Part shown: piece by piece, positions 16,952 to 32,460 of the stretch
Position numbering within the stretch: the stretch's first letter is position 1
Layout: the number at the start of each line of letters is the position of its first letter
NCBI RefSeq assembly: GCF_001975665.1
Contig: NZ_CP019419.1
Span: forward strand, 1,922,001 to 1,986,000
Length of the DNA stretch: 64,000 nucleotides
Source of the DNA: Polaribacter reichenbachii
GTDB taxonomy: Bacteria; Bacteroidota; Bacteroidia; Flavobacteriales; Flavobacteriaceae
Direction of reading: 5' to 3'
Translations under genes and position numbers: made by a program
Notes under the pieces: model-generated
The model's input: the letters and a program-made list of their open reading frames with translations, nothing else
The model's database searches: none
What the model was told of the DNA's origin: nothing

Positions 16952-17662
16952 ATGAAGAAAACACTTTTTTTATTGATGACAATTTTTACTTTTTTACAAG
17001 TAAATGGGCAAACATCAATTTTTAATGATTTATTGCAAAAACACGTTTCTGATACTGGAATTGTAGATTACAAATCTTTTAAAACTGATGTATCAAAATT
17101 AGATACTTATCTTGATTATTTAAAGAAAACTTCTCCTGATAATTCTTGGTCAGAAAATAAACAGAAAGCCTTTTGGATTAATGCTTATAATGCATATACC
17201 ATCAAATTAATTTTAGACAATTATCCTTTAAAATCAATAATGGATATTAAACAAAAAGGTAAAACTGCTTGGAAAATTCTTTTTGTAGAAGTAGCTGGGA
17301 AGACTTATACTTTAGATTTTATAGAACACGAAATTTTACGTAAAAAATTATTTGACCCTAAAATTCACGTAGGTGTAAATTGTGCATCTGGTTCTTGCCC
17401 TAAATTAGGTAATAAAGCATTTACAGAAGAAAACATAGAAGCAGAATTAACACAATTAATGAAAGATTTTGTGAATGATGTTTCAAGAAATAAAATATCA
17501 AAAAGGAAAGTTCAAATTTCATCTATTTTCGATTGGTTTAAAGAAGATTTTACTAAAAATGGTACTATAATCGATTATTTAAATCAATTTTCAGAAATAG
17601 AAATAAACCCAAAAGCTAAAATTAGTTATTTAAAATACAATTGGTCTTTAAACGAAAAGTAG
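16952..17662 (+). CDS. DUF547 domain-containing secreted protein
   Basis: 236 residues with a signal peptide (MKKTLFLLMTIFTFLQVNGQ). The DUF547 blocks FWINAYNAYTIKLILDNYP and HVGVNCASGSCPKLGNKAF, the latter with two cysteines, are clear. The fold resembles cysteine-protease-like or transglutaminase-like proteins, but enzymatic function is not established. It precedes the arsenosugar-type cluster by 68 bases and is common elsewhere, so membership of that cluster is not implied. Confidence 0.8.
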   Translation: MKKTLFLLMTIFTFLQVNGQTSIFNDLLQKHVSDTGIVDYKSFKTDVSKLDTYLDYLKKTSPDNSWSENKQKAFWINAYNAYTIKLILDNYPLKSIMDIKQKGKTAWKILFVEVAGKTYTLDFIEHEILRKKLFDPKIHVGVNCASGSCPKLGNKAFTEENIEAELTQLMKDFVNDVSRNKISKRKVQISSIFDWFKEDFTKNGTIIDYLNQFSEIEINPKAKISYLKYNWSLNEK

Positions 17663-17730: not shown

Positions 17731-18066
17731 ATGTCGAAACCTTATTATGATGCAGCCGATTTAAGAAAATTCGGAAAAATAACAGAGTGGAGTGAAGAAC
17801 TTGGAAATAAATTCTTTGATTATTATGGTAAAGTTTTTGAAGAAGGAGCGCTTACTGCTCGTGAAAAATCTTTAATTGCTTTGGCTGTAGCACATACAGA
17901 ACAATGCCCATATTGTATAGATGCGTATACAAAAGATGGTTTACAAAGAGGAATTACAAAACCAGAAATGATGGAAGCCATTCATGTTGGTGCTGCAATT
18001 AAAAGTGGTGCAACTTTAGTACACGGAGTACAAATGATGAATAAAGTAAACAAATTAGAAATGTAA
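17731..18066 (+). CDS. Arsenosugar-associated peroxidase-like (CMD/AhpD fold) protein
   Basis: 111 residues of the carboxymuconolactone decarboxylase/AhpD fold. The redox CPYC pair is at C59 and C62, preceded by ALTAREKSLIALAVAHTEQ and followed by a conserved His-containing AIHVGAAIKSGA helix. The small size and its position directly before arsS match the family called arsenosugar biosynthesis-associated peroxidase-like (TIGR04169). Reaction is unproven; a thiol redox function is likely. The 108 bases to arsS hold two hairpins. Confidence 0.82.
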   Translation: MSKPYYDAADLRKFGKITEWSEELGNKFFDYYGKVFEEGALTAREKSLIALAVAHTEQCPYCIDAYTKDGLQRGITKPEMMEAIHVGAAIKSGATLVHGVQMMNKVNKLEM

Positions 18067-18073
18067 GCAGAGA

Positions 18074-18100
18074 ACCATTTTTGCTGTTCGCAAAAAAGGT
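18074..18100 (+). other. Hairpin in arsS leader
   Basis: Imperfect inverted repeat, ACCATTTTTGC with GCAAAAAAGGT (10 of 11 pairs), loop TGTTC, just after the stop of the CMD gene. No T run follows, so it is a structure of unknown role: mRNA processing, attenuation or weak termination. Confidence 0.4.
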
Positions 18101-18150
18101 GTGAATCGCTTATTCTGGTGACAATTAGAATCTATTTATTAAATAAAAAA

Positions 18151-18173
18151 GATACTGAAACAAGTTCAGCATA
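18151..18173 (+). repeat. Degenerate dispersed palindrome before arsS
   Basis: GATACTGAAACAAGTTCAGCAT (18151-18172) contains the CTGAA/TTCAG inverted repeat that I recall from intergenic repeats of flavobacteria. It ends immediately before the arsS start codon. Confidence 0.35.
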
Positions 18174-18174
18174 A

Positions 18175-19227
18175 ATGAAGAAATCGCTCAAAGCAAGAAA
18201 CAACGATATTGCAAATACGTCTCGCCAAATGGAAATTCTTTCTAACGGAATTTTCGCAAATGGAGAATTACCCACTTTTGCTGCTAAAATTAAAGAGACC
18301 AATCAGTTTCCTTTACGTCCTAAAAAACTAGAGATTTTACAAATCAATTTAGGTTATATGTGTAACCAAGTTTGTGCACATTGCCATGTAGATGCTGGTC
18401 CAGATCGTAAAGAAATTATGACTCTAGAAACAATGAATCAATGTTTGGAAGTCATTAAAAATACAGGTGCACATACTTTAGATTTAACTGGTGGTGCTCC
18501 AGAAATGAATCCTAATTTTAGATGGTTTGTAGAAGAAGCTGCAAAAGCCGGAATTAAAGATTTTATTGTTCGTTCTAATTTAACAATTATTAGAGCAAAT
18601 AAAAAATATTATGATTTACCAGAGTTTTTCAAAAAACACAATGTACACGTAGTTTCTTCAATGCCTCATTGGACACGTGGAAAAACCGACAAACAACGTG
18701 GAGATGGAGTTTTTGATAAATCAATTAAAGCTTTACAAGAATTAAATGCAGTTGGTTATGGATTAGAAGGTTCTAGTTTAAAGCTAGATTTGGTTTACAA
18801 TCCTTCAGGTGCATTTTTACCTGGAGATCAAATGGCTTTAGAAAATGATTTCAAAAAAGCATTAAATGCCGATTTTGGAATTGATTTTCATAGTTTATTT
18901 GCCATTACAAATTTGCCAATCAGTCGTTTTTTAGATTATTTAATCGCATCAGAAAACTATGAAGATTATATGTTTTCTTTGATAGAAGCGTATAATCCTA
19001 CTGCAGTAGCAAATGTAATGTGTACAAATACTCTTTCTGTAAGTTGGGATGGTTGGTTGTACGATTGCGATTTTAATCAAATGCTAAATCTTAAGGTAGC
19101 TAGTACAGTAAAACACATTTCTGAGTATAATGAAGAAGTTTTACTAAACAGAAATATAATTATCAATCAACATTGTTATGGTTGTACTGCTGGCGCAGGT
19201 AGTAGCTGTCAAGGAGTTGTTGCGTAA
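18175..19227 (+). CDS. arsS: Radical SAM protein ArsS (arsenosugar biosynthesis)
   Basis: 350 residues. The radical SAM cluster motif is CNQVCAHC (C63, C67, C70), followed by GGAPEMNP (SAM-binding GGE-like). The C-terminal Cys-rich domain includes MCTNTLSVSWDGWLYDCDFNQML and ends HCYGCTAGAGSSCQG (C334, C337, C345). This is the TIGR04167 architecture formerly called radical SAM/Cys-rich or rSAM/selenodomain protein; this copy has Cys rather than selenocysteine. ArsS is known to join the 5'-deoxyadenosyl moiety of SAM to dimethylated arsenic, giving a dimethylarsinoyl-adenosine precursor of arsenosugars. Neighbouring CMD, TIGR04282 transferases and purine nucleoside phosphorylase support the call. 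Confidence 0.88.
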   Translation: MKKSLKARNNDIANTSRQMEILSNGIFANGELPTFAAKIKETNQFPLRPKKLEILQINLGYMCNQVCAHCHVDAGPDRKEIMTLETMNQCLEVIKNTGAHTLDLTGGAPEMNPNFRWFVEEAAKAGIKDFIVRSNLTIIRANKKYYDLPEFFKKHNVHVVSSMPHWTRGKTDKQRGDGVFDKSIKALQELNAVGYGLEGSSLKLDLVYNPSGAFLPGDQMALENDFKKALNADFGIDFHSLFAITNLPISRFLDYLIASENYEDYMFSLIEAYNPTAVANVMCTNTLSVSWDGWLYDCDFNQMLNLKVASTVKHISEYNEEVLLNRNIIINQHCYGCTAGAGSSCQGVVA

Positions 19228-19339
19228 TATAATTCTGCAAGGTGTTCTCAAAGTATAAATGTTTCTTACAGGTGTAATAATTCAACCAACTAATTAGAGT
19301 AAAACGACAAGGTTTTAGCAACTTTGTATCAATAAAAAT

Positions 19340-20020
19340 TTGAACAATAAAACTGCCATATTAATTTTTGCAAATTCAGCTAATAAAGAAGTTGAAAGAA
19401 AATCATTTCTATCTAAAGAAGTGTTTGCGAAATTAAATGCACAGACTTTAAAAACAGTTCAAAAATCGGGTTTAGATTATTTTCATTTTTCAGAAAAAAA
19501 TCAAGTTGGTGCAACTTTTGGAGAACGTTTTACAAATGCAATCGAAACTGTTTTTAATAAAGGTTACAAAAATGTTATTACCATTGGTAATGATACTCCT
19601 CATTTAAAAACAAAGCATTTAGTAGAAACTGCAAATCAATTTTTAAAAAAAGAGTTGGTTTTAGGACCATCAAAAGATGGTGGTTTTTATTTAATGGGTA
19701 TTTCTAAAAAGCAGTTTCAAAAAGAAGCTTTTTTAAAATTACCTTGGCAAACCAATCGTTTGCAAAGTTCTATTGTTCAAATAGCAACAAACCAAAAAAA
19801 TAAAATTTCTTTTTTAGAAGTTTTAAATGATTTAGATGCTAAAGAAGACATTTTAAAAATAGTCAATAGTTTAAAATCGATTAGTTTATCAATATTAAAA
19901 TTATTAATTGCTCTTGTTTGTATTGATAAAAAAAGCATTAGTATGTACAAATTGTACACTTTAGAAAAATCTTTTTCTAAGCTTTTTAATAAAGGCTCTC
20001 CTGTGTTTTTGAATAACTAA
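19340..20020 (+). CDS. DUF2064/TIGR04282-type transferase, divergent copy
   Basis: 226 residues starting with TTG (no ATG precedes the conserved ILIFANS strand). The core GNDTPHL and GPSKDGGFYLMGI matches DUF2064, the nucleotide-sugar-transferase-like family named TIGR04282 arsenosugar biosynthesis glycosyltransferase. The usual N-terminal P-x-G-x-x-KTRLA loop is replaced by ANKEVERKSF, so substrate or nucleotide binding may differ or be lost. It follows arsS by 112 bases and precedes the susC-like gene by 67. A canonical paralog lies at 27400. Confidence 0.7.
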   Translation: MNNKTAILIFANSANKEVERKSFLSKEVFAKLNAQTLKTVQKSGLDYFHFSEKNQVGATFGERFTNAIETVFNKGYKNVITIGNDTPHLKTKHLVETANQFLKKELVLGPSKDGGFYLMGISKKQFQKEAFLKLPWQTNRLQSSIVQIATNQKNKISFLEVLNDLDAKEDILKIVNSLKSISLSILKLLIALVCIDKKSISMYKLYTLEKSFSKLFNKGSPVFLNN

Positions 20021-20087
20021 ACTCGCTACTTTATTCAAAGTCAATTATTCTAAATTCAATCAATTTTTACACAAAATCATTTTTTTA

Positions 20088-23000
20088 ATGAAATCTATTT
20101 TTATGTGGATTTTTATGCTGAGTATCAGTATAACCTTTTCGCAAACTAAAATTTCAGGAACAATTACCGATAAAATTTCTGGAGAAAAAATTCCATTTGT
20201 AAATGTAGTTTCCTCTTTAGGTATAGGAACAACATCAAATGATAATGGGCAATATGAAATTAATATTTCATCCGAAGACAAAAAACTAATCTTTTCTTTT
20301 TTAGGATATAAAACACAAGAGGTTTCTATAGATAACCGGTTGGTTATTAATGTGCAGTTAGAAGAATCTGCCACTAGTTTAAATGAAGTTGTAGTTACTG
20401 CTTTGGGTTTAAATAGAAGAACAAAAGAATTGGGTTACGTAGTTCAAGAAATTAAAGCAAAAGATGTTGCTGATGTAAAAACAGTAAATTTTTTAGACAA
20501 TTTATCAGGAAAATTAGCAGGTGTAACCATTTCTCAAGGGGCTACAGGAGTTGGCTCATCATCAAAAATAACCATTCGTGGCGAAGCTTCTTTTTCAAAC
20601 AATAACCCACTTTTTATTGTAGATGGAACACCAATAAATAATAATTCTGTTTTTAATTTTACTAACGAAGCAGCTGCTGGTTTTCAAGAAATTGACTTTG
20701 GTAATGGAGCAATGGAGGTAAATCCAGATGATATAGAATCTATTACTGTTTTAAAAGGACCAAGTGCTGCTGCATTATATGGAACTCGTGCTTCTAATGG
20801 AGTTATTGTTATTAAAACAAAAGATGGTAGTAAAAAGAAAGGATTAGGCATTAGTATTAATTCTTCAATTACCTTCGATGCTGCTTTTCGTTTGCCAGAT
20901 TTTCAGAATGAATTTGGGCAAGGAAATTCTGGACAGTTTGAATATATAGATGGTTTAGGTGGAGGAATAAATGATAATATTACTTATTCTTGGGGGCCAA
21001 GATTAGAGGCTGGAAATTTAGTTAATCAATTTGATAGCCCAGTAACTTTACCAGATGGAACTGTAGTTAGAGGTGGAGATACTTCATTATATACAGGTTT
21101 ACCAATAACACCAACTTTATTTAAATCTAACTCAGATAATTTAAAAGATTTTTATCAAACAGGGGTTACAATTATTAATAATATTGCGATTAACGATAGT
21201 TTTAATAGAGGAGCTTATAGATTGTCTCTAACAGATTTAAGTAGCGAGTCTATAATTCCTGGTGTAAATTTAGATAGAAAAACTGCAGCTTTAAAACTTA
21301 ATTTTAATCCAACAGAAAAAACGAAAATTACAACTTCATTTTCATATGTAAATTCTAAAAGCGATAATAGACTAGCTAATGGATATGGAAGTGAAAATGC
21401 AAATTATTCTTTAGTGGCTTGGGGACCTAGATCTTTAAATATTGATAGTTTACGCGATTATTGGCAACCTGGTTTAGATGGTGTACAGCAATATTCGTTT
21501 AATTATACTTTTTTTGATAATCCGTTTTTTATTTTACACGAAAATACCAATTCATTTAACAGAGATCGTGTTTTTGGTAATGTTGCCATCAACCATAAAA
21601 TCATAGAAAATTTAAGTATTGCTTTGCGTTCTGGGATGGATTATTCTTCAGAAATTAGAGCCTTTAAACGTAATTTTAGTTCCAATCGTTTTAAAAATGG
21701 AGCCTATGCAGAACACGATGTTTTTTACCGAGAAATTAATACAGATTTTTTAATTAATTATAATAACAATTTTGGTGATATTTCTTTTGATATTTCACTT
21801 GGAGGAAATCGTTTAGATCAAAATGCATCTACCAAACAAACACAAACTACAAATTTGGCTCAGCCTGGTATTTTTAGTTTAAATAATGCAGCTTCACCTA
21901 TAGAAGTTTTTGAGTTCGAATCAAAAAAACGAATCAACTCCATTTACGGAATTGCAAAATTAGGATATAAAGATTATCTGTTTTTAGATATTACAGGACG
22001 TAATGATTGGTCTAGTGCTTTGGCTACACCTTTTTCTGTAGATGGTACATCATTCTTTTATCCTTCAGTATCAACAAGTTTTATTTTGTCTAACTATACA
22101 GATTTACCAGAGAATATTTCATTTGCAAAATTAAGAGCAAGTGTTGCACAAGTGGGTAATGATACAGATCCTTATCAAACTTCAGGCGCTTTTGTTTCGC
22201 AAACAACTTTTAATGGTCAAGCCACTTTTAGCAATCAAGATTTTATACCAAATTCTAATTTAAAACCAGAAATTACAACTTCTTATGAGTTAGGTGCAGA
22301 TTTGCGTTTCTTTAAAGATCGATTAAATATAGATTTTACATATTATCATGCTACAACAAAAGACCAAATTATTTCTTTACCAATACCAATTTCTTCGGGT
22401 TATAATCAGCAAGTAATTAATGGCGGAAAAGTAAATACAAGTGGTGTAGAAATTATTTTAGGAGGCAAACCTATTAGAAATGAAAACTTTAAATGGAATA
22501 CCATTTTTAATTTTGCAACCAACAAATCTATAATTAAAAATTTACCACAAAATGATGGTCGTTTAACCTTGGCATATAGTAGAATTTATGATAGTGCAAA
22601 CCAAACTGTTTGGTTTCAAGTAGAAGAAGGTGGCCAAATAGGCGATATGTATGGAACAGGTTATGAGAAAAACGCTAATGGCGAATTTCTTTTAGATGAT
22701 GATGGAAGATATATTGCCAATAATGAGTTGATAAAAATCGGGAATTACAATCCTGATTTTACTTTAGGATGGAACAATTCTTTTAGCTACAAAAACTGGA
22801 ATGCAAACTTTTTGTTTGATTGGAGACAAGGAGGAGAAATTGTATCTAGAACAAGAGCTTTAGGAAATGTTGGTGGGCAATTGGCAGAAACAGCTTACAG
22901 ACCAGAAGCAGGAATTGTTGCACAAGGCGTTAATATTAATACAGGTTTAGCGAATACAGTAGCAGTAACAGCAGAAAGCTATTACAGACAGTTTTACGAT

Positions 23001-23282
23001 AGAAATCACGAAGAAAATAATGTATATGATGCTTCTTTTTTAAAATTACGTCAATTTTCAATTGGTTATGTTTTAGAGTTAAACGAAGGTTTTTTAGGGT
23101 TAAAAAATCCATCTACAATGAACTTTTCTTTTATAGGTAATAACTTATTTGTAATTACAGAAAACCCACATTTCGATCCAGAGCAAGTTGCAGTACAAGG
23201 TAATGGTTTTGTAAGTGGAGTAGAAGATATGAGTTATGCAACTAGCAGAAGTTTAGGTTTTAAAGTAAGTTTTAATTTCTAG
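20088..23282 (+). CDS. SusC/RagA-family TonB-dependent outer-membrane transporter
   Basis: 1064 residues: signal peptide (SITFSQ), a carboxypeptidase-like beta-sandwich (KISGTITDKISGEKIPFVNV, ends near 95), TonB-box-like segment, plug (SGKLAGVTISQ, IRGEASFSNNNPLFIVDGTPI, VLKGPSAAALYGTRASNGVI) and a 22-strand-type barrel ending SLGFKVSFNF. It imports a substrate across the outer membrane using TonB energy, with the lid protein encoded next. Usual substrates are glycans or peptides, but no polysaccharide enzyme is near, and it sits in the arsenosugar-type run, suggesting a small organic substrate; this is inference. Confidence 0.92.
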   Translation: MKSIFMWIFMLSISITFSQTKISGTITDKISGEKIPFVNVVSSLGIGTTSNDNGQYEINISSEDKKLIFSFLGYKTQEVSIDNRLVINVQLEESATSLNEVVVTALGLNRRTKELGYVVQEIKAKDVADVKTVNFLDNLSGKLAGVTISQGATGVGSSSKITIRGEASFSNNNPLFIVDGTPINNNSVFNFTNEAAAGFQEIDFGNGAMEVNPDDIESITVLKGPSAAALYGTRASNGVIVIKTKDGSKKKGLGISINSSITFDAAFRLPDFQNEFGQGNSGQFEYIDGLGGGINDNITYSWGPRLEAGNLVNQFDSPVTLPDGTVVRGGDTSLYTGLPITPTLFKSNSDNLKDFYQTGVTIINNIAINDSFNRGAYRLSLTDLSSESIIPGVNLDRKTAALKLNFNPTEKTKITTSFSYVNSKSDNRLANGYGSENANYSLVAWGPRSLNIDSLRDYWQPGLDGVQQYSFNYTFFDNPFFILHENTNSFNRDRVFGNVAINHKIIENLSIALRSGMDYSSEIRAFKRNFSSNRFKNGAYAEHDVFYREINTDFLINYNNNFGDISFDISLGGNRLDQNASTKQTQTTNLAQPGIFSLNNAASPIEVFEFESKKRINSIYGIAKLGYKDYLFLDITGRNDWSSALATPFSVDGTSFFYPSVSTSFILSNYTDLPENISFAKLRASVAQVGNDTDPYQTSGAFVSQTTFNGQATFSNQDFIPNSNLKPEITTSYELGADLRFFKDRLNIDFTYYHATTKDQIISLPIPISSGYNQQVINGGKVNTSGVEIILGGKPIRNENFKWNTIFNFATNKSIIKNLPQNDGRLTLAYSRIYDSANQTVWFQVEEGGQIGDMYGTGYEKNANGEFLLDDDGRYIANNELIKIGNYNPDFTLGWNNSFSYKNWNANFLFDWRQGGEIVSRTRALGNVGGQLAETAYRPEAGIVAQGVNINTGLANTVAVTAESYYRQFYDRNHEENNVYDASFLKLRQFSIGYVLELNEGFLGLKNPSTMNFSFIGNNLFVITENPHFDPEQVAVQGNGFVSGVEDMSYATSRSLGFKVSFNF

Positions 23283-23320
23283 TTTTCACTAAGGTGAAAA
23301 ACGCAATAAAAAATAATACA

Positions 23321-24760
23321 ATGAAAAAAATTATATACATATTCGCATTTTTAGGATTTATAACTACAAGTTGCACCAAAGATTTTGAAGAGATAAATAC
23401 CAACCCAAATGCACCTGTTGCTGTGCAACCCAGTTTGTTGTTAAGACAAGTTATTTACGATTTTGGAGAGCAAATGAGTTACGAAGGTTTTGTGGCAGGA
23501 GATTTATTAGCGCAACATAGAACAGCTTTAGATTTTAATTTATTTGATAGACACGATTTAAAAAGTCCGCAATTAGGTGGTAATCCTTGGTCTATTTTTT
23601 ATGTTAATTTACGTGATAACGAAATCATTTTAAATCAAAGTAGAGAAACAGCAGCTTATACAGTTTACGAAGGCCCTGCTTTAATTTTAAAAGCATACAT
23701 GGCTGCTGGTTTAACAGATTTATTTGGAGATGTTCCTTATTTTGAGGCCTTTAATGGTGTTGAAGGTTCTGTTACTCCACAATACGATTTACAAGAAGAT
23801 ATTTATCAAAATGAAAACGGAATTCTAGATAATTTAGATAAAGGTATTGCAGCAATTAACGCTTACACAAGTTCTATAGCTTTAGAGGGTGATATTCTGT
23901 TTAATGGCGATTTACAATCTTGGATTCAGTTTGCCAATTCTTTAAAAATAAAATATTTAATTCGTATTTCTGATAAGGTTGATGTTTCTTCGGATTTGCA
24001 AACTTTATTTAATAATGGAAATTACATCAGTACAAATAGTGAAAATGCAGTATTCGATTTTACAAATTCTGAACCAAACAGTTTTAGGTTGGCACAATTA
24101 AGAGTTGGAGATTTCAATAACTTTGTAATGTCTGAAACTATGGAAGAAATTTTGGTTGATTTAGATGATAATAGAATATCAACATTTTTTAGAACTTTTA
24201 CCAATTCTATAACAAATGAATTTAATGGATTAATTAACGGAATAAATTCTTCTACAACTTCTATAGCTATAGCAGATTATTCGCTTTCAGGTACTATTTT
24301 TAGAAAAGATACATCTACCTTAGATGCTAATTTTATGACAGCTTGGGAAACCAGTTTTTTATTAGCAGAAGCTGCAGAAAAAGGATTAATTTCTTCGGAT
24401 GCAGAAACTTTATATAACTTAGGCGTTGCACAAGCTTTTGAATATTGGCACACAGATTTACCTACAACATATTTAGCAGGAAACGCAAATTATAATGCAA
24501 CAGGTACAACTCCATTACAACAAATTATTACTCAAAAATGGATAGCTGCTGTAATTAATGGTTATGAAGGTTGGATTGAGTATAGAAGAACAGGTTATCC
24601 TGCATTAAAAGATGTTGCTGCAAGTTTAAATAATGGTTTAATTCCTGCAAGAATGCCTTATCCTGCAGAAGCTGCAAGTTTAAATCAAGATAATTATAGT
24701 GTGGCAGAAGCAGCAACAAATGGTAATAGTTTAAATGTAAAAGTTTGGTGGAATGAGTAG
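23321..24760 (+). CDS. SusD/RagB-family substrate-binding lipoprotein
   Basis: 479 residues from ATG at 23321; a GTG start 27 bases earlier would spoil the signal peptide. Lipobox GFITTSC gives a surface-exposed lipoprotein. The N-terminal KDFEEINTNPNAP is typical, and the C-terminal WIEYRRTGYP with RMPYPAEAA is a SusD hallmark. It caps the SusC-like channel encoded 38 bases upstream. Its stop overlaps the start of the symporter gene by eight bases, so outer- and inner-membrane transport are translationally coupled. Confidence 0.92.
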   Translation: MKKIIYIFAFLGFITTSCTKDFEEINTNPNAPVAVQPSLLLRQVIYDFGEQMSYEGFVAGDLLAQHRTALDFNLFDRHDLKSPQLGGNPWSIFYVNLRDNEIILNQSRETAAYTVYEGPALILKAYMAAGLTDLFGDVPYFEAFNGVEGSVTPQYDLQEDIYQNENGILDNLDKGIAAINAYTSSIALEGDILFNGDLQSWIQFANSLKIKYLIRISDKVDVSSDLQTLFNNGNYISTNSENAVFDFTNSEPNSFRLAQLRVGDFNNFVMSETMEEILVDLDDNRISTFFRTFTNSITNEFNGLINGINSSTTSIAIADYSLSGTIFRKDTSTLDANFMTAWETSFLLAEAAEKGLISSDAETLYNLGVAQAFEYWHTDLPTTYLAGNANYNATGTTPLQQIITQKWIAAVINGYEGWIEYRRTGYPALKDVAASLNNGLIPARMPYPAEAASLNQDNYSVAEAATNGNSLNVKVWWNE

Positions 24761-26093
24761 TTTAAGTATAGTTCATTGGCAATGGTTATTGGTTGTTTGT
24801 TCTAGTTTAATATTGTTTTTCTTATCGCCTTTGGCAAAAACAACAGACGAGTTTTTTAAAGCGGTTCATAAAAAGAAAGCGCCCAATACTTTAGTGCTTA
24901 CAGGTAGTTTAATTATTTCTTGGATTTTTGCAAAAAGCATAACCAACGCCGCTAATTTAGGTTTAGCATTTGGTTTAGTTGGTGGTGTTGCATATTCTGG
25001 TTATTACCTTTCTTTTGCAGTAGCTGGTATTATTATTTATCAGCTTAGAACAAAAGGAAATTATAAAAGTATTCACGAATTTTTAAACACAAAATTTGGA
25101 AAAAAAGCAGTAGCCATTTTTTCTATTTTAATTGCTTTTCGATTGTTTAATGAAGTATGGAGTAACACTATGGTTATAGGTAATTATTTTGGAGAACAAG
25201 GTGCTGCATCTTACTATTGGGCAATTGTTGTTTTTACTTTTTTAACTTTAAGTTATGCTTTAAAAGGCGGTTTAAGTAGTTCTATTTTTACAGATGTAAT
25301 TCAAATGGTTTTATTTGCTATTTTGTTGATGGTAATTTTATGTACTATTTTTTCTACGGATAATTTCTCATCAAAAGAAATTATAAACTCTGGAACTTGG
25401 AACTTTGAATTAGGTTTAAATTTATTTTTTGCAGCACTTTTACAATCATTTAGTTATCCTTTTCATGATCCTGTTTTAACTGATAGAGGTTTTATAACAT
25501 CTCCTAAAGTAACACGAAAAAGTTTTTTATGGGCTGCATTGTTAGGCGCTTTTTGCATTATATTTTTTAGTTTTATTGGTATTTATGCTCAAACAAAAGG
25601 TATGCAAGGTCAAGCTGCAGTAGATGTGGGTAAAGCATTTGGTGTTGTTATTCTATTAGTAATTAATTTTATTATGATAACTTCTGCAGCATCTACTTTA
25701 GATTCTACCTTTTCATCATTCTCTAAGTTATTAGTTATTGATTTAAAACTTAAAAAAACAGTTTTTTTTGGAAGAATTACAATGATTACTGTTGCTGTTT
25801 TAGGTACAATACCTGTGTTTTTAAATGCAGAAATTTTATCTGCAACCACTATTTCTGGAACGATGGTTATTGGACTAACTCCTATTTTTATTTTCTGGAA
25901 TAAAGAAGTGCCTAAATCTAGTTTTTATTGGTCTATTTTTTGTGGTTTGTTTTTTGGAATCTTGTTGGTTTTTAATCTTTTTCCAGAAGAGTTAATTTTT
26001 ACAAAAGGTAAATATGCAAGTTTACTTTGGTCTAATCTTTGGGGAATTTTATGTTGTACCCTTTTATATTTTATTCCTAAATGGGTCAAATAA
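24753..26093 (+). CDS. Sodium:solute symporter family (SSS) protein
   Basis: 446 residues, about 12 or 13 transmembrane helices. Sequence features of the SSS fold are visible: an early helix-rich GLVGGVAYSGYYLSFAVAG stretch, the Gly/Ser-rich IITSAASTLDSTFSSFSKL block where Na+ site residues usually lie, and long hydrophobic C-terminal helices. It probably moves the solute brought in by SusC/SusD across the inner membrane. Overlaps susD by 8 bases and the metallophosphoesterase gene by 13, which argues strongly for a shared function. Confidence 0.85.
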   Translation: MSSLSIVHWQWLLVVCSSLILFFLSPLAKTTDEFFKAVHKKKAPNTLVLTGSLIISWIFAKSITNAANLGLAFGLVGGVAYSGYYLSFAVAGIIIYQLRTKGNYKSIHEFLNTKFGKKAVAIFSILIAFRLFNEVWSNTMVIGNYFGEQGAASYYWAIVVFTFLTLSYALKGGLSSSIFTDVIQMVLFAILLMVILCTIFSTDNFSSKEIINSGTWNFELGLNLFFAALLQSFSYPFHDPVLTDRGFITSPKVTRKSFLWAALLGAFCIIFFSFIGIYAQTKGMQGQAAVDVGKAFGVVILLVINFIMITSAASTLDSTFSSFSKLLVIDLKLKKTVFFGRITMITVAVLGTIPVFLNAEILSATTISGTMVIGLTPIFIFWNKEVPKSSFYWSIFCGLFFGILLVFNLFPEELIFTKGKYASLLWSNLWGILCCTLLYFIPKWVK

Positions 26094-26908
26094 TAGAAAA
26101 TATAGGTAATATATCTGGTAAGATGCTACTTTTTGGCGGTGTATATAGTAATTTACAAGCCTTAGAAGCTTTAAAGCAAATAGCAGAAAAAGAAAATATT
26201 CTTCCAGAGAATTGTATTTCTACAGGAGATCTTGTTGGGTATTGTGCACAACCAGAAGAAACGGTAGAATTGTTTAAATTATGGGGTGCAAAAAGTATTG
26301 TTGGTAATGTAGAAATTCAGTTAAGAGAAAATGCAGAAGATTGTGGTTGCGATTTTCGAGAAGGTTCTAGGTGCGATGATTTCTCTCAGCAATGGTATCC
26401 TTATGCACAAAGTAAACTATCAGAAAACTCTTTAGATTTTTTAAAAACATTGCCTAATCACATCAACTTTAATTATGCAAATAAAAGTGTTACTGTAGTT
26501 CATGGATCTTATTTTAACGTTTCCGAATTTATTTTTAAATCTACAGATTGGTACAATAAAAAAACAAATTTTGAAGCTACAAAAAGCGATGTTATTATTG
26601 CAGGTCACTGTGGGTTACCTTTTCATCATCAAGAAGAAAACAAAATTTGGTTAAATCCTGGTGTTATTGGAATGCCTGCAAATGATGGTAGCCCAAATGT
26701 TTGGTATGTAATCTTAAATGATTGGCAAGAAAGCTTTAAATTTACACATCATACATTAGCTTATAATTACAAATTAACAAGTAGGCTAATGCGTAATGGT
26801 TTATTGCCAAAAGAGTACGCAAGAACCATCGTAACAGGTATTTGGGATAATACAGAAATTTTGCCAGCTTTCGAAAGTGGTTTACAAGGTTTTGGAATTC
26901 AACTTTAA
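26081..26908 (+). CDS. Metallophosphoesterase
   Basis: 275 residues of the calcineurin-like fold. Metal-binding blocks are GDLVGY near residue 48, GNVEIQ near 76, VVHGSY near 142 and AGHCGLPF near 173. The first block (GGVYSNLQALEAL) corresponds to the family's GDxHGNxxAL but with GGVYSN in place of GDIHGN, so one metal site may be changed. There is also a Cys-rich DCGCDF segment. Substrate unknown; in this setting a phosphorylated sugar or nucleotide intermediate is plausible. Overlaps the symporter gene by 13 bases. Confidence 0.8.
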   Translation: MGQIIENIGNISGKMLLFGGVYSNLQALEALKQIAEKENILPENCISTGDLVGYCAQPEETVELFKLWGAKSIVGNVEIQLRENAEDCGCDFREGSRCDDFSQQWYPYAQSKLSENSLDFLKTLPNHINFNYANKSVTVVHGSYFNVSEFIFKSTDWYNKKTNFEATKSDVIIAGHCGLPFHHQEENKIWLNPGVIGMPANDGSPNVWYVILNDWQESFKFTHHTLAYNYKLTSRLMRNGLLPKEYARTIVTGIWDNTEILPAFESGLQGFGIQL

Positions 26909-26918
26909 ATTTAGATTA

Positions 26919-27407
26919 ATGAAAAAAATAGCGCTCTTTTTTTTACTTTTTTCATCTGCTTTGTTTGCTCAAAAAAAGCTAGATAAACTGTTGAATAAAT
27001 TTAATAAAAACAATGTGCCCTATATTTCTGTAGATTCTTTAGCTAAAACCAACGCTATTTTGTTAGATGCCAGAGAAGAAAAAGAATATAAAACCAGCCA
27101 TTTAAAAGAGGCAATTTGTGTGGGTTTTGATAATTTTAATGTAGATAAAACAATAAATAAATTACCAGAAGATAAGAATACAAAAATAGTAGTGTATTGC
27201 TCTTTGGGTATTCGATCAGAAATTGTCGCTCATCAATTAATTAAAGCAGGTTATACCAATGTTTACAATTTATATGGTGGTATTTTCGAATGGAAAAATG
27301 CCAATTTTAAAGTGATTGATACATTAGGAAAACCTACAGAAAAAGTACATACATTTAATAAAGATTGGAGTAAATGGTTAAAAAAAGGAAAGAAAGTTTA
27401 TGAGTAA
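26919..27407 (+). CDS. Rhodanese-domain secreted or periplasmic protein
   Basis: 162 residues from MKKIALFFLLFSSALFAQ, a signal peptide; the in-frame extension to 26877 overlaps the previous gene and is rejected. A single rhodanese domain covers the rest, with active-site Cys in VVYCSLGIRSE and the preceding ILLDAREEKEYKTSHLKEA. Such proteins transfer sulfane sulfur or bind oxyanions; a rhodanese loop can also bind arsenate in related Cdc25/Acr2 enzymes, though six-residue CSLGIR is the sulfur-transferase type. It overlaps the next gene by eight bases. Confidence 0.85.
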   Translation: MKKIALFFLLFSSALFAQKKLDKLLNKFNKNNVPYISVDSLAKTNAILLDAREEKEYKTSHLKEAICVGFDNFNVDKTINKLPEDKNTKIVVYCSLGIRSEIVAHQLIKAGYTNVYNLYGGIFEWKNANFKVIDTLGKPTEKVHTFNKDWSKWLKKGKKVYE

Positions 27408-28011
27408 AAACTTACTACTAATCTTTACTAGAAATCCAGAATTAGGCAAAGCAAAAACACGTTTAGCTAAAACTGTTGGAGATGAAACAGCGTTAGAAAT
27501 TTATAAATTCTTACTACAAAAAACCAGAGATATTTCATTAAAAGTAAATGCAGATAAAGCCGTTTATTATTCTGTGAAAGTTAGAGAAAATGATATTTGG
27601 GATGCTAAATATTATCAAAAATACCAACAATTTGGTGAAGATTTAGGTATTAGAATCTTAAACGCATTTAAAAATGGTTTTGATTCTGGCTACCAAAAAG
27701 TAATGATTATTGGCAGTGATTTGTATGATTTATCATCAGAAAATATTCAAAAAGCATTTGCAGAATTAGAGAATAATGATGTGGTTATTGGTCCTGCAGA
27801 AGATGGTGGTTATTACCTTTTAGGGATGAATGCATTGCAAGAAAAAGTGTTCAAAAATAAAAAATGGGGTACAGAAACTGTAAGAAAAGATACATTATTA
27901 GATTTACAAGATAAAAAAGTGAAATTATTAGCATATAAAAACGACATAGATGTATATGAGGATATTATTGATATTCCAGAAATTATGTCAAAGTTTATAA
28001 ATGTTAAATAA
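27400..28011 (+). CDS. TIGR04282-family arsenosugar-type glycosyltransferase (DUF2064)
   Basis: 203 residues with the complete family signature: FTRNPELGKAKTRLA (9-23), IGSDLYDL (104-111) and GPAEDGGYYLLGM (131-143). It resembles CofC/GT-A nucleotidyl or glycosyl transferases with an Asp-containing metal site. The family is named for co-occurrence with arsS and is thought to transfer the dimethylarsinoyl-ribose unit or build its aglycone; this has not been shown here. The start ATG overlaps the end of the rhodanese gene. It is the canonical partner of the divergent copy at 19340. Confidence 0.83.
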   Translation: MSKNLLLIFTRNPELGKAKTRLAKTVGDETALEIYKFLLQKTRDISLKVNADKAVYYSVKVRENDIWDAKYYQKYQQFGEDLGIRILNAFKNGFDSGYQKVMIIGSDLYDLSSENIQKAFAELENNDVVIGPAEDGGYYLLGMNALQEKVFKNKKWGTETVRKDTLLDLQDKKVKLLAYKNDIDVYEDIIDIPEIMSKFINVK

Positions 28012-28017
28012 TCACGA

Positions 28018-28719
28018 ATGAATAAATTATTACTTATTGCTTTTTTAAGCCTTTCTTACCTTCAAATTAATGCGCAATGTGCAGAAACTTTAACAGGTTT
28101 TGGTAACAATCCAGACCAAGATTCTTATAATATTGTTGGTGATGTTACTCTTATTTTAAATACCAACAATACAATTACATTAAATTTAGGAAGTAATTTT
28201 AGAACTGCTCCTGGGCCAGATATTAGAGCTTTTTTGGTAGATTCTAATGGTATTTCTGATGATGTTTTAGCTACAACTTTAATCGCAAATTTAAATCATT
28301 TCGAAATCGGTTTAACACAAGATTCAGGCAGACAGTCTTTTACAGTTGCAATTCCTGATGATAAAAATATAACCGATTTTGATAAGGTCTTTTTCTATTG
28401 TTTAGAGTTCAATCATTTTTGGGATTTAGGAACTTTCACTAGTTTTTCATCAGATAATTGTTCAGTTTTAAATATTGATGAAATAAAACTTGATAGAATA
28501 TCTATTTACCCAAATCCAGCAAAAAATAAGATTCAACTTTCAAATATCAATGCTATTTCTGCCGAAATTCGTATTTTTAATGTTTTAGGGAAACAAGTTT
28601 TTCATCAATCTAAAATCACAAATAATAGCATAGATATTTCTTCTTTTAAGAAAGGTGTTTATTTAGCTAAAATTAATGTTGATGGTAAAACAAAAACACA
28701 AAAATTAGTAATTCAATAA
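28018..28719 (+). CDS. DM13-domain protein with type IX sorting tail
   Basis: 233 residues: signal peptide (YLQINAQ), then a DM13-like domain at about 25-150 with GDVTLIL, NFRTAPGPDIRAFLVDSNG and KVFFYCLEFNHFWDLG, containing the conserved Cys in the YC segment. DM13 is a predicted redox or electron-transfer module. Residues about 160-233 (ISIYPNPAKNK ... KGVYLAKINVDGKTKTQKLVIQ) form a type IX C-terminal sorting domain, so it is exported to the surface. It starts six bases after the transferase gene and so belongs to the same operon. Confidence 0.75.
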   Translation: MNKLLLIAFLSLSYLQINAQCAETLTGFGNNPDQDSYNIVGDVTLILNTNNTITLNLGSNFRTAPGPDIRAFLVDSNGISDDVLATTLIANLNHFEIGLTQDSGRQSFTVAIPDDKNITDFDKVFFYCLEFNHFWDLGTFTSFSSDNCSVLNIDEIKLDRISIYPNPAKNKIQLSNINAISAEIRIFNVLGKQVFHQSKITNNSIDISSFKKGVYLAKINVDGKTKTQKLVIQ

Positions 28720-28808
28720 AAATATCATTATAAATTTAAAAGTAATCTTATTGATAATAAAGATGTTACATTAAATTTCTTCATTTATAATGATAAAATA
28801 GAACATAA

Positions 28809-29624
28809 ATGAAACAACAACAATTACAAAATACAATTGATTTTTTAAAGTCAGCAGGAATTACAAATCCAGAAATAGGAATTGTTTTAGGTACAGGTTT
28901 AGGTAAATTAGTCAATGAAATTGCAATAGAAAAAGAAGTAGCTTATACAGATATTCCGAATTTTCCTGAGGCAACTGTAGAGTTTCATTCTGGTAAATTG
29001 ATTTACGGAGAATTATCAGGAAAAAAAGTATTGGTAATGTCTGGTCGTTTTCATTTATACGAAGGGTATACTCCTTGGGAAGTTACTTACGGAATTAGAA
29101 CAATGCACGGATTAGGAATCGAAAATCTATTAATTTCTAATGCAGCAGGTGCTATTAATTTATCTTACAAAAAAGGCGATTTAATGCTGATAGAAGATCA
29201 TCTTAATTTACAAGGTCAATCTCCATTAGCATTTAAAGGAGCTAATAATTTTGGTAATATTTTTGCTGATATGTTAGCACCATATTCAAAAGAATTAAAT
29301 ATCAAATTGAATTTGGTAGCTACAGAACAAAATATTCAATTACATAATGGAACTTACGCAAGTGTTTTAGGCCCTCAATTAGAAACAAGGGCAGAATATA
29401 GAATGTTGCAAATTTTAGAGACTGATGCTGTTGGTATGAGTACAGTTCCTGAAGTTATTGTTGCAAAACAACTCAATTTACCTTGTTCAGCAATTTCTGT
29501 TTTAACAGATGAATGTGATCCTAAAAATTTACAACCAGTAGATATTGCAGAAATTATTGCTATTGCTGGTGAAGCAGAACCGAAAATGATTGCTTTGTTT
29601 AAGGGAGTTATCGAAAAATTATAA
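28809..29624 (+). CDS. Purine nucleoside phosphorylase
   Basis: 271 residues of the trimeric PNP family. Motifs: GIVLGTGLGKL, FPEATVEFHSGK, GRFHLYEGYTPWEV, LLISNAAGAIN, GPQLETRAEYRML and the purine site DAVGMSTVPEVIVA with later Asn replaced by Asp in LTDECDP. It cleaves purine nucleosides with phosphate to base plus ribose 1-phosphate. In an arsS setting it is a candidate for removing adenine from dimethylarsinoyl-adenosine; ordinary purine salvage is the alternative. 89 bases separate it from the DM13 gene. Confidence 0.93.
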   Translation: MKQQQLQNTIDFLKSAGITNPEIGIVLGTGLGKLVNEIAIEKEVAYTDIPNFPEATVEFHSGKLIYGELSGKKVLVMSGRFHLYEGYTPWEVTYGIRTMHGLGIENLLISNAAGAINLSYKKGDLMLIEDHLNLQGQSPLAFKGANNFGNIFADMLAPYSKELNIKLNLVATEQNIQLHNGTYASVLGPQLETRAEYRMLQILETDAVGMSTVPEVIVAKQLNLPCSAISVLTDECDPKNLQPVDIAEIIAIAGEAEPKMIALFKGVIEKL

Positions 29625-29642
29625 AGTTAAACGAGGCTTTTT

Positions 29643-29668
29643 AGGTTCTTAAAACCTTAAAAGAACCT
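29643..29668 (+). terminator. Hairpin after purine nucleoside phosphorylase
   Basis: AGGTTCTT paired with AAGAACCT around a 10-base loop, 18 bases after the stop. No strong T run follows, so termination is possible but uncertain. Confidence 0.35.
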
Positions 29669-29747
29669 TAACGATATAAAAACTAATAGAAAAGGTTACC
29701 AAAACTTAAAGGGCTACACTGAAAAAGCGTTACTATTTAAAACCTAT

Positions 29748-30695
29748 ATGAACAACCATTTCAAATCCATCATCCTACAAAAAACGGGTGCATCATCTTT
29801 ACAAGAAAAAGAAGTAATTCAATCACTTTGGAGTGGTTATGGTAAAATAATTCGTGTAACATTAGAGGGAAGTCCGCTAAAAAGTGTGGTGGTAAAAAAT
29901 GTACAATTGCCTAAACAATTGAATCATCCTAGAGGTTGGAATTCTGATATTGGTCACCAAAGAAAATTAAAATCCTACCAAGTAGAATCGTATTGGTACA
30001 AAAACTATAGCAACCAAAGTAAGGCACGTTTACCAAAATGCTTGGCTATTACAAAAAAAGAAGGTGAGGTTTTAATAGTTTTAGAAGATTTAGATGAATC
30101 TGGATTTTTATTAAGAAAACAAAACGTAAGTTGGCTAGAAATTGAAGCTTGTTTGCAATGGTTGGCTAATTTTCACGCTAGTTTTTTGGGGAAAGATCCC
30201 ATAGGACTTTGGGAGGTTGGTACTTATTGGCATTTAGCAACGAGGCCGCAAGAACTAAAAGTTCTAGAAGATATTGAATTGAAAAAAGCGGCGGCTGCAA
30301 TTGATAATGCATTAAGTAATTGTCAACACAAAACCTTTGTACACGGAGATGCAAAATTGGCAAACTTCTGTTTTTCTAAAAACGGACAAGTAGCTGGAGT
30401 AGATTTTCAATATGTTGGTGGTGGTTGTGGAATGAAAGATGTAGCCTATTTTGTGGGAAGTTGTTTAAATGAAAACGATTGTGAGCGTTTAGAAAGCAAA
30501 ATTTTAGATACCTATTTTAGCCATTTACATAATGCTATAGGTTATAAAAATGAAGCACTAGAAAAAGAATGGCGAGCATTATATTACGTAGCCTGGGCAG
30601 ATTTTCATCGATTTTTAAAAGGATGGAGTCCTGGTCATTGGAAAATTAATAGCTATAGTGAACGGATTACAAAACAAGTTATTAAAAATTTATAA
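29748..30695 (+). CDS. Phosphotransferase (aminoglycoside/choline/ecdysteroid kinase-like)
   Basis: 315 residues of the protein-kinase-like APH superfamily. The catalytic loop is [13 protein letters not shown] and the metal-binding segment is [27 protein letters not shown] supplies the likely ATP-anchoring Lys, and [10 protein letters not shown] forms the hinge. Closest in style to the CHK/DUF1679 ecdysteroid-kinase-like group, which phosphorylate hydroxyls of small molecules. Substrate unknown. The phosphatase-family gene starts two bases after its stop, so kinase and phosphatase are coupled. Confidence 0.8.
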
Positions 30696-30696
30696 A

Positions 30697-31515
30697 ATGG
30701 ATTTACAAAACCTTACAGATATTGCTATACAAGCAGCTTTAGCCGCAGGCAAAGTCATTCAAAAATATATGAATGATGATGTTACTATTTTAGAGAAAAA
30801 AATAGGAGATTCTTTGGCATCTCAAGTACTTACAGAAGTAGATTTAAAAAGTGAAGCAACTGTTTTATCTTATCTTTTACCCACTTGTAAAACCTATGAT
30901 TTGGGGCTGTTAACAGAAGAGCAAGAAGATGATAAAAGTAGATTTTCTAAAGAATTTTTCTGGTGTATAGATCCTATAGATGGTACGTTAGCATTTATAA
31001 AAAAGCAAGCTGGTTTTTCGGTTTCAATTGCATTGATTTCTAAAGAAGGAGTTCCTCAAATTGGAGTTGTTTTTGATCCTACAACCAATAATTTATATCA
31101 CGCCATAAAAGGACAAGGTGCTTTTAAAAATAGAGAAACTTGGCAATTAAATGAACCCAACAATTATTTAACCTATACTATCGAAAAATCGTTAACAACT
31201 TTACCAGAAAAAGATGAATTTATAGCAATTTTGAATCGAGAAAAAGAAAAATTAAAATTAAGCGAATTGAAAGAGCATTTTGGTTCAGGTTCTGTTTTAA
31301 ATGCAATAGCAGTGGCTGAAAATAGACCTGCCATAATGTTTAAATTTCCCAAAAAAGAAAATGGTGGAGGTTCTTTTTGGGACTATGCTTCAACGGTGTG
31401 TATTTTTAATGAACTCGGTTTGCAAGCTGGAGATTTTTATGGAAACGCATTAAATTTAAATAGCGAAAAAAGTACGTATATGAATGAGAAAGGAATATTC
31501 TTTTGCAATATGTAA
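30697..31515 (+). CDS. Inositol monophosphatase/CysQ-family phosphatase
   Basis: 272 residues from ATG at 30697; a start at 30658 would overlap the kinase. Metal sites: TEEQEDD (first Glu), WCIDPIDGTLAFIK (DPIDGT) and the C-terminal GSFWDYASTVCI, where WD supplies another ligand. The family removes phosphate from inositol phosphate, 3'-phosphoadenosine phosphate or fructose bisphosphate. The nearest subgroup appears CysQ-like, but no sulfate-assimilation gene is near. Paired with the kinase gene immediately upstream. Confidence 0.85.
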   Translation: MDLQNLTDIAIQAALAAGKVIQKYMNDDVTILEKKIGDSLASQVLTEVDLKSEATVLSYLLPTCKTYDLGLLTEEQEDDKSRFSKEFFWCIDPIDGTLAFIKKQAGFSVSIALISKEGVPQIGVVFDPTTNNLYHAIKGQGAFKNRETWQLNEPNNYLTYTIEKSLTTLPEKDEFIAILNREKEKLKLSELKEHFGSGSVLNAIAVAENRPAIMFKFPKKENGGGSFWDYASTVCIFNELGLQAGDFYGNALNLNSEKSTYMNEKGIFFCNM

Positions 31516-31572
31516 ATCCGATAAAAATCGTCACTTTTTCAATTGTGCAACTCTTCATAAATTTGTGTTTGA

Positions 31573-32460
31573 ATGGAAAAATATCTAGAAATCATAAAAA
31601 ACTCATATTCCAGTTACTGGAATTATCTCAAAAATTCGGTTTTTATGGAATTAAATTGGGAGAATTATTTTTATGGTTTAATCATAATTTCTTTAATAGT
31701 TTGGGGTTTAGAAGCTATTTTTCCTTGGCGTAAAAATCAATCTCTATTCAGAAAAGATTTCTGGTTAGATACATTTTATATGTTCTTTAATTTCTTTTTG
31801 TTAAACTTAATTGTGTTAATCGCGTTATCTAATTCAGCATCAGAATTGTTTAACGATGTTTTGGGGATTGTGGGGTTGTCAATTAAAAATTTTCAGCTTT
31901 TAGAAATTAATAAATTACCTTTTTTTACAAGAATCTTCATCTTTTTTATTGTAGTAGATTTTGTACAATGGTGGACACACAGATTGTTACACAGAGTAGA
32001 GTTTTTATGGAACTTTCACAAAGTACATCATTCAGTAAAACAAATGGGCTTTGCTGCACACTTGCGTTATCATTGGATGGAACCTGTGGTTTACAACTCT
32101 TTAAAATACATTCCTTTGGCAATTATTGGCGGATTTTCTGCTAAAGATATAGCTTTTGTGCACTTTTTTAATATTACAATTGGGCATTTAAATCACGCAA
32201 ACATTAATTGGGATTATGGTGGGTTAAAATATATTTTTAACAATCCAAAAATGCACATTTGGCATCATTCTAGAGAATTACCAAAAGAGAGAAAATATGG
32301 GGTAAATTTCGGAATTACTCTAAGTATTTGGGATTACATTTTTAAAACCAATTACATACCACATTCAGGTAGAGATATTGAGTTGGGGTTTGAGGGTGAT
32401 GAAAATTTCCCTAAAGGATTTATTCAGCAAGAAATGTATCCTTTAGGTAGAAAAGATTAA
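31573..32460 (+). CDS. Sterol desaturase/fatty acid hydroxylase family protein
   Basis: 295 residues, membrane-embedded, with the three histidine clusters of di-iron hydroxylases: HRLLH (136-140), HKVHH (149-153) and MHIWHHS near 230. Helices at about 33-50, 65-90 and 118-130. Family members hydroxylate or desaturate lipids and carotenoids. Last gene of the plus-strand run, 57 bases after the phosphatase. Whether it belongs to the same pathway is unclear; it is convergent with the DUF1599 gene. Confidence 0.85.
   Translation: MEKYLEIIKNSYSSYWNYLKNSVFMELNWENYFYGLIIISLIVWGLEAIFPWRKNQSLFRKDFWLDTFYMFFNFFLLNLIVLIALSNSASELFNDVLGIVGLSIKNFQLLEINKLPFFTRIFIFFIVVDFVQWWTHRLLHRVEFLWNFHKVHHSVKQMGFAAHLRYHWMEPVVYNSLKYIPLAIIGGFSAKDIAFVHFFNITIGHLNHANINWDYGGLKYIFNNPKMHIWHHSRELPKERKYGVNFGITLSIWDYIFKTNYIPHSGRDIELGFEGDENFPKGFIQQEMYPLGRKD

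Follow-up and report, generated by a model that had tools for sequence, protein, structure and literature searches.

A putative uptake cassette in place of arsM in an arsenosugar-type gene cluster of Polaribacter reichenbachii

The window analysed here is a stretch of 64,000 nucleotides of Polaribacter reichenbachii (Flavobacteriaceae; NCBI RefSeq assembly GCF_001975665.1, contig NZ_CP019419.1, positions 1,922,001 to 1,986,000), taken from a one-contig genome of 4.125 Mb that is 99.99% complete. It includes a gene cluster built around arsS, which encodes the radical SAM enzyme ArsS. Beginning with the gene for a CMD/AhpD-like protein (CMD), the cluster runs through arsS into genes for a TIGR04282-like protein (T82a), a SusC channel, a SusD-like lipoprotein, an SSS-family sodium/solute symporter (SSS) and a protein of calcineurin-like metallophosphoesterase fold (MPE), here termed the cassette. 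It continues with a rhodanese-domain protein, a second TIGR04282 family member (T82b), a DM13 surface protein and a purine-nucleoside phosphorylase (PNP) (Table 1). The genes were originally predicted from the sequence alone; all of them lie on one strand at the predicted coordinates, and family profiles and ORF (open reading frame) coordinates bear out the gene calls, the interleaving and three overlaps (susD/SSS, 8 bp; SSS/MPE, 13 bp; rhodanese/T82b, 8 bp). The adjacent SusC (TIGR04056) and SusD-like lipoprotein have the make-up of a SusC/SusD uptake system.

The original prediction also held that ArsM and the TIGR04283 glycosyltransferase are absent from the window, and this extends to the complete genome. 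In the genome-wide search for arsM that it had proposed, the best match to the canonical ArsM profile NF008823 scores 38.5 bits (cut-off, 263) and arsenosugar-type ArsM (NF038099) has no match at E 1e-10; the best TIGR04283 match scores 63.6 bits (cut-off, 182). Of the families by which an arsenosugar cluster is recognised, the genome has ArsS with its CxxxCxxC motif and TIGR04282, and has neither ArsM nor TIGR04283 over cut-off.

Named arsS loci, the top 80 of 587 candidates, were compared with the window by searching them with its proteins and by clustering their ORFs; their flanks reach up to 10 kb, so that distal genes are missed. They share the core CMD-arsS-rhodanese-T82b-PNP, which is often accompanied, further along, by DUF547, hydroxylase and TIGR04283 genes. 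The nearest named relatives of the window ArsS are from Polaribacter (94% identity to P. porphyrae). In the P. porphyrae locus (L003), a 322-residue protein encoded between arsS and the rhodanese gene is arsenosugar-type ArsM (NF038099, 574 bits; cut-off, 400). In the window, T82a-susC-susD-SSS-MPE occupies this very site, and gene order on either side of the swap, from DUF547 through PNP, is identical. In the usual flavobacterial arsS cluster, of which L003 is an example, arsM stands where the window has the cassette.

The distribution of the cassette was followed in 355 Flavobacteriaceae genomes with the symporter as marker (threshold, E 1e-140). The symporter is found in 55 genomes, and arsS adjoins it in 53 of the 55 loci, the window counted as one. 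The exceptions are G074, which has the full cassette with arsS elsewhere and ArsM present, and G207, which has a symporter alone (59% identity) and no ArsS. ArsS passes its cut-off in 273 of the 355 genomes (two unlisted genomes being taken as G337 and G338), and the symporter occurs in 54 of these 273 and in one of the 82 without ArsS (p=6e-6). Among the 54 genomes with both, MPE accompanies the symporter in all 54, susC and susD in 51, and T82a in 50. The three symporter genomes without susC and susD (G002, G105 and G142) all have an ArsM match, that of G105 with an internal stop. In the 52 fetched loci showing both, the cassette follows arsS in 40 and precedes CMD-arsS in 12. ArsS of the cassette loci is 77–86% identical to that of the window (54% in G002), and the CxxxCxxC motif is present in all 144 ArsS proteins compared. 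The susC, susD and symporter genes are thus conserved with arsS in relatives, so that the original prediction passes the refuting condition it had set on their linkage.

An SSS-MPE pair adjoining arsS, with susC, susD and T82a missing, was also seen in four loci (L116, L120, L092 and L058). The genomes that hold L116, L120 and L092 have an ArsM match, as does locus L058 itself; the genome of L120 is G105. At L116 (8346-9377), the ArsS encoded immediately before SSS-MPE is just 54% identical to that of the window and is the best ArsS match of its genome.

The presence of the cassette is correlated with the absence of ArsM. NF008823 at E 1e-35 split the scores of arsenosugar-type ArsM, and ArsM was counted with the P. 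porphyrae protein instead; any ArsM here means an NF038099-type protein at E 1e-60 or NF008823 over cut-off. Arsenosugar-type ArsM occurs in 212 of the 355 genomes, all of which have ArsS, and 36 genomes have a canonical NF008823 match that passes the cut-off. Any ArsM is present in 209 of the 219 ArsS genomes without the symporter versus 23 of the 54 with it (p=6.6e-18, the genomes not being independent). This leaves 31 ArsS genomes, including that of the window, with the symporter and no ArsM, and ArsS retains CxxxCxxC in all 31. In the 20 loci of this group with the module after arsS, arsS and rhodanese are present in 20, T82b and PNP in 19 each, DUF547 in 17 and TIGR04283 in 16. The counts in the 20 corresponding loci with both symporter and ArsM are rhodanese 19, T82b 19, PNP 19, DUF547 17 and TIGR04283 16. 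ArsM is the sole pathway gene that differs between these two groups.

Ten ArsS genomes have neither ArsM nor symporter. Six of them (L140-L145) show short CMD-arsS-T82b-PNP clusters without rhodanese, and the other four (G056, G058, G184 and G319) were viewed at arsS itself only. G264 has an ArsM remnant match of 61 positions.

Several tests address shared ancestry. Fifteen genera include ArsS species both with and without the symporter. In seven of them (g1, g43, g50, g80, g83, g145 and g149) ArsM is missing from the species with the symporter and present in those without; the reverse pattern occurs in none, and eight show no difference. From 144 genomes, 54 with and 90 without the symporter, a gene tree of ArsS was built by a quick method and, for the Pagel test, rooted at its midpoint; G207, having no ArsS, was omitted. 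The 90 without the symporter are the ten genomes with neither gene plus 80 of the 209 ArsM genomes, a non-random set drawn from a score-ordered ArsS listing plus same-genus species. This tree requires no fewer than 16 changes of the symporter and 25 of ArsM. With all branches, 16 independent pairs can be drawn, in which ArsM differs in the opposite way in 9.0 and in the same way in 0.34 on average. With supported branches, eight pairs give averages of 5.1 opposite, 0.0 same and 2.9 without difference (median p 0.0625). The Pagel test supports correlated change (likelihood ratio 28.4, p=1e-5); its fitted rates, which are loosely determined, describe gain of the cassette in ArsM-containing backgrounds followed by rapid gain and loss of ArsM.

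A second family provides a further comparison. In a phylum-wide sample of 296 genomes, six symporter matches were found, three of them outside Flavobacteriaceae. Two of the three, G522 and G533, have susC-susD-SSS-MPE beside arsS and CMD (47-61% identity), and G422 has the symporter with arsS on another contig; none of the three has NF038099 ArsM over cut-off (best, 116 bits versus 400). The MPE-CMD protein of G522 is listed as Lewinella aquimaris. In 110 genomes of the family of G522, the symporter occurs in 24 and NF038099 ArsM in 25 (threshold E 1e-30; 24 of the 25 over cut-off), and no genome has both (p=0.0016). The ArsM match of G733 is in two pieces with stops.

Table 1. Features of the arsS region, in coordinates of the window.
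Feature	Position	Strand	Basis and remarks
Queuosine-precursor transporter, TIGR00697	16140-16889		Upstream of DUF547
DUF547 protein	16952..17662	+	PF04784, 89 bits; frequent arsS neighbour
CMD/AhpD-like protein	17731..18066	+	TIGR04169, 191.5 bits (cut-off 120); CPYC motif
ArsS, radical SAM enzyme	18175..19227	+	TIGR04167, 432 bits (cut-off 300); CxxxCxxC present
T82a, TIGR04282-like (import cassette, putative)	19340..20020	+	105 bits, below cut-off 134; short N-terminus
SusC, TonB-linked outer-membrane channel (cassette)	20088..23282	+	TIGR04056, 594 bits (cut-off 368)
SusD-like surface lipoprotein (cassette)	23321..24760	+	PF12771, 307 bits
SSS-family sodium/solute symporter (cassette)	24753..26093	+	PF00474, 29.1 bits (cut-off 22.8)
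MPE, calcineurin-like fold (cassette)	26081..26908	+	PF12850; conserved cysteines 45, 55, 88, 90, 98, 177
Rhodanese-domain protein (core cluster)	26919..27407	+	NF045521, 203 bits (cut-off 145)
T82b, CofC-like nucleotidyltransferase family (core cluster)	27400..28011	+	TIGR04282, 204 bits (cut-off 134)
DM13 surface protein with type IX secretion (T9SS) sorting tail (optional member)	28018..28719	+	PF10517, 37 bits; PF18962, 60 bits
Purine-nucleoside phosphorylase, PNP (core cluster)	28809..29624	+	NF006054, 315 bits (cut-off 218)
Fatty-acid hydroxylase-family membrane protein	31573..32460	+	PF04116, 98 bits; frequent arsS neighbour

For susD and the rhodanese gene, an internal ATG was chosen as the start (23321 and 26919), the longest ORFs beginning with GTG at 23294 and 26877. 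Among the 80 named loci, the DUF547 ORF family occurs in 41, the fatty-acid hydroxylase family in 18 and the DM13 family in 10. A queuosine-precursor transporter gene upstream of DUF547 is also seen in the Polaribacter loci L003-L005. An EcKL-like kinase and an inositol-phosphatase family protein, encoded between PNP and the hydroxylase gene, had been counted as cluster members; they are not conserved with arsS, as only P. porphyrae L003 has them among the 80 loci, and they probably do not belong to the system. Four loci, L016 (4509-7628), L014 (11859-14972; PF25183), L048 and L074, encode another type of TonB-dependent receptor-like protein in the vicinity of arsS, next to T82a or ArsM, which is possibly another uptake variant. 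A gene for a PiT-family (PHO4) transporter lies near arsS in 7 of the 80 loci (for example, L013 16569-17681), a possible arsenate/phosphate link.

Two of the cassette proteins depart from the active sites of their families. In TIGR04282/CofC-like nucleotidyltransferases, an N-terminal GxxKTR loop has a role in nucleotide binding. This loop of active enzymes is missing from T82a: G16, K19 and R21 are present in 72 of 72 T82b proteins, whereas G and K occur in none and R in one of 48 T82a proteins, with a lysine one column further in 47 of 48. Aspartates 107, 135, 182, 184 and 188 and a DGG motif are retained in 45 to 48 of the 48, and NKGSP stands near the C-terminus in 46 of 47. T82a is probably not a working nucleotidyltransferase.

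Active calcineurin-like phosphoesterases have the metal/catalytic motifs DxH, GNH and GHxH. In the alignment of MPE with 3rqz, DxH reads GGVYSN, GNH reads GNV and GHTH reads GHCG, so the motifs of an active phosphoesterase are lacking. Other residues stand at the D and H of DxH and at the second H of GHxH in all of 30 aligned MPE proteins, and at the H of GNH in at least 90%; D50, N76, H141 and H176 are retained in 68 of 68. Compared with the calcineurin-like phosphoesterases 2gju, 1nnw, SapH (3qfm) and 3rqz, MPE thus has invariant or conserved cysteines (Table 1) instead of these motifs; residues 93-97 are poorly predicted in its structural model. A fused MPE-CMD protein is encoded by 13 of 67 MPE ORFs. 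Fusions were called by ORF length over 350 plus the CPYC motif (12 of 13) and, for L162, by Pfam; two were checked with Pfam. Among the listed relatives of the Lewinella fusion, 107 of 120 (query included) carry both Pfam domains.

The symporter is assigned to the SSS family by PF00474 over its gathering score and by an AlphaFold 2 model (pLDDT 85) matching SSS structures. Its substrate was sought among the fold neighbours, which span urea, iodide, choline and sugars and give no assignment; identity to iodide NIS, urea DUR3, choline CHT1 and sialic acid SiaT is 12-16%, at which the substrate is not readable.

In Synechocystis PCC 6803, ArsM makes dimethylarsenite and ArsS adenosylates it (Xue, 2019; Cheng, 2021; as cited in PMC8552651 and PMC12159101). 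The window shares ArsS with this route, together with the arsenosugar-associated families TIGR04169 and TIGR04282; unlike it, the genome is without an ArsM or a TIGR04283 protein that passes the cut-off, and the SusC/SusD-symporter cassette stands in the place of ArsM. Like other SusC/SusD uptake loci, the cassette pairs a SusC channel with an adjacent SusD lipoprotein, here joined by an inner-membrane transporter; it differs in being tied to arsS and in having no polysaccharide-degrading enzyme among its genes. If an uptake cassette for both membranes goes with loss of ArsM and retention of the other genes, import of methylated arsenic by that cassette is the most economical reading. We accordingly regard an arsenosugar-type pathway whose own methylation step is replaced by import of a methylated arsenical as the probable explanation, held with moderate confidence. 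Because arsS, T82b and PNP are kept in nearly all of the 20 symporter loci without ArsM that have the module after arsS, the pathway would still start at ArsS, which argues for import of a dimethylated precursor equivalent to the ArsM product and not of a finished arsenosugar. The putative substrate is most likely dimethylarsinate. SusC/SusD would carry it across the outer membrane and the symporter, with sodium, across the inner membrane. Dimethylarsinate is pentavalent and needs reduction after import, for which the cysteine-rich MPE, together with CMD, would be suited: MPE, with this thiol protein, may receive the arsenical, reduce it to the trivalent form or hand it over. Addition of the 5'-deoxyadenosyl group by ArsS would follow, with later steps carried out by PNP, T82b and a glycosyltransferase.

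Several observations weigh against this explanation. Replacement of ArsM in Flavobacteriaceae is partial: 23 of the 54 symporter genomes with ArsS retain ArsM (one of them G105, with its internal stop), and symporter and ArsM also occur together in G434 and G629, Flavobacteriaceae genomes added by the phylum-wide sample; moreover, both are missing from 10 of the 273 ArsS genomes. Restricted to supported branches, the pair comparison gives a borderline result. The absence of TIGR04283 over cut-off in the window genome leaves the last pathway step without an assigned gene. In all loci with the module before arsS (10 without and 2 with ArsM), rhodanese, T82b, PNP and TIGR04283 fall outside the fetched stretch, so that the ten without ArsM count as 0 of 10 for these genes. 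In the second family, the test was not conditioned on ArsS, and arsS adjoins the symporter in 6 of 24 loci (L162, L277, L280, L281, L285 and L286), 23 of which were viewed as 3-20 kb (G522 as L162) and that of G657 as 2.8 kb, several ending at short contigs; arsS was seen in none of the 8 ArsM loci viewed (of 25). Finally, SusC/SusD usually carry ligands larger than dimethylarsinate.

The last point suits an alternative close to the original prediction, in which the cassette imports a larger organoarsenical (an arsenosugar, an arsenolipid head group or dimethylarsinoylethanol) that is either degraded inside to dimethylarsenic for re-use by ArsS or remodelled directly. T82a and MPE could then be processing enzymes, and the cassette genera Maribacter, Algibacter and Winogradskyella are known from algae. 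MPE, however, lacks the phosphoesterase ligands, and no enzyme cleaving As-C bonds was recognised among the scanned cluster proteins. Direct use of a finished sugar would make ArsS and PNP dispensable, whereas CxxxCxxC is kept in 31 of 31 genomes and PNP in 19 of 20 loci. We consider this alternative unlikely. Of the original proposal of an arsenical uptake system, import is thus supported, by the linkage to arsS and the tendency of the cassette to stand in for ArsM, whereas the retention of arsS, T82b and PNP does not favour algal arsenosugars being taken up in finished form.

Alternatively, ArsS of the cassette lineages might act on a non-arsenic substrate, the cassette importing that acceptor and ArsM loss marking the change. 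Arsenic as the substrate has no proof from sequence, and T82a is an extra, altered transferase-fold protein. Against this, ArsS at cassette loci, with the identities given above, stays near cassette-free ArsS, the downstream genes are kept where visible, and 23 ArsS genomes carry ArsM and symporter together; a change of substrate is improbable. Hitch-hiking, in which the cassette imports an unrelated nutrient and its locus and the ArsM pattern follow from shared ancestry or habitat, draws on the non-independence of genomes, the borderline pair test and the second-family cassettes often not seen beside arsS, but is very unlikely in view of the 53/55 linkage, the two placements, the MPE-CMD fusion, the seven genera versus none, the Pagel test and the lack of symporter/ArsM overlap in the second family.

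Marine arsenic chemistry adds a further argument for import. Phytoplankton excrete methylated arsenic, and the methylated arsenic pool of the western Sargasso Sea may turn over about every 8 days; SAR11, which is likewise a marine heterotroph using methylated arsenic, oxidises dimethylarsinate (PMC6426599). SAR11 gains energy by oxidising the methyl groups, and no SusC/SusD or ArsS route is named in the available excerpts of that source (PMC6426599). Among the open-access literature matches listed, there is no report of a dedicated methylated-arsenic uptake system of this kind. A more specific proposal, offered tentatively, is dedicated scavenging: a SusC/SusD-symporter importer of dimethylarsinate, with a phosphoesterase-fold, cysteine-based arsenical reductase or carrier working with or fused to CMD, would allow arsenosugars to be made from phytoplankton waste without methylation by the cell itself.

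With an ArsS that passes the cut-off in 273 of the 355 genomes sampled, Flavobacteriaceae seem commonly to have arsenosugar-type chemistry, and the cassette is a candidate dedicated uptake system for methylated arsenic. If the import reading is true, each genome carries a prediction: strains with ArsM would start from arsenite, and those with the symporter and no ArsM would need external dimethylarsenic. The tendency of relatives to have either ArsM or the cassette suggests that, rather than making methylated arsenic, these bacteria gather it ready-made from their environment. If making can be exchanged for importing in this way, phytoplankton would be able to supply arsenosugar synthesis in heterotrophs through cross-feeding.

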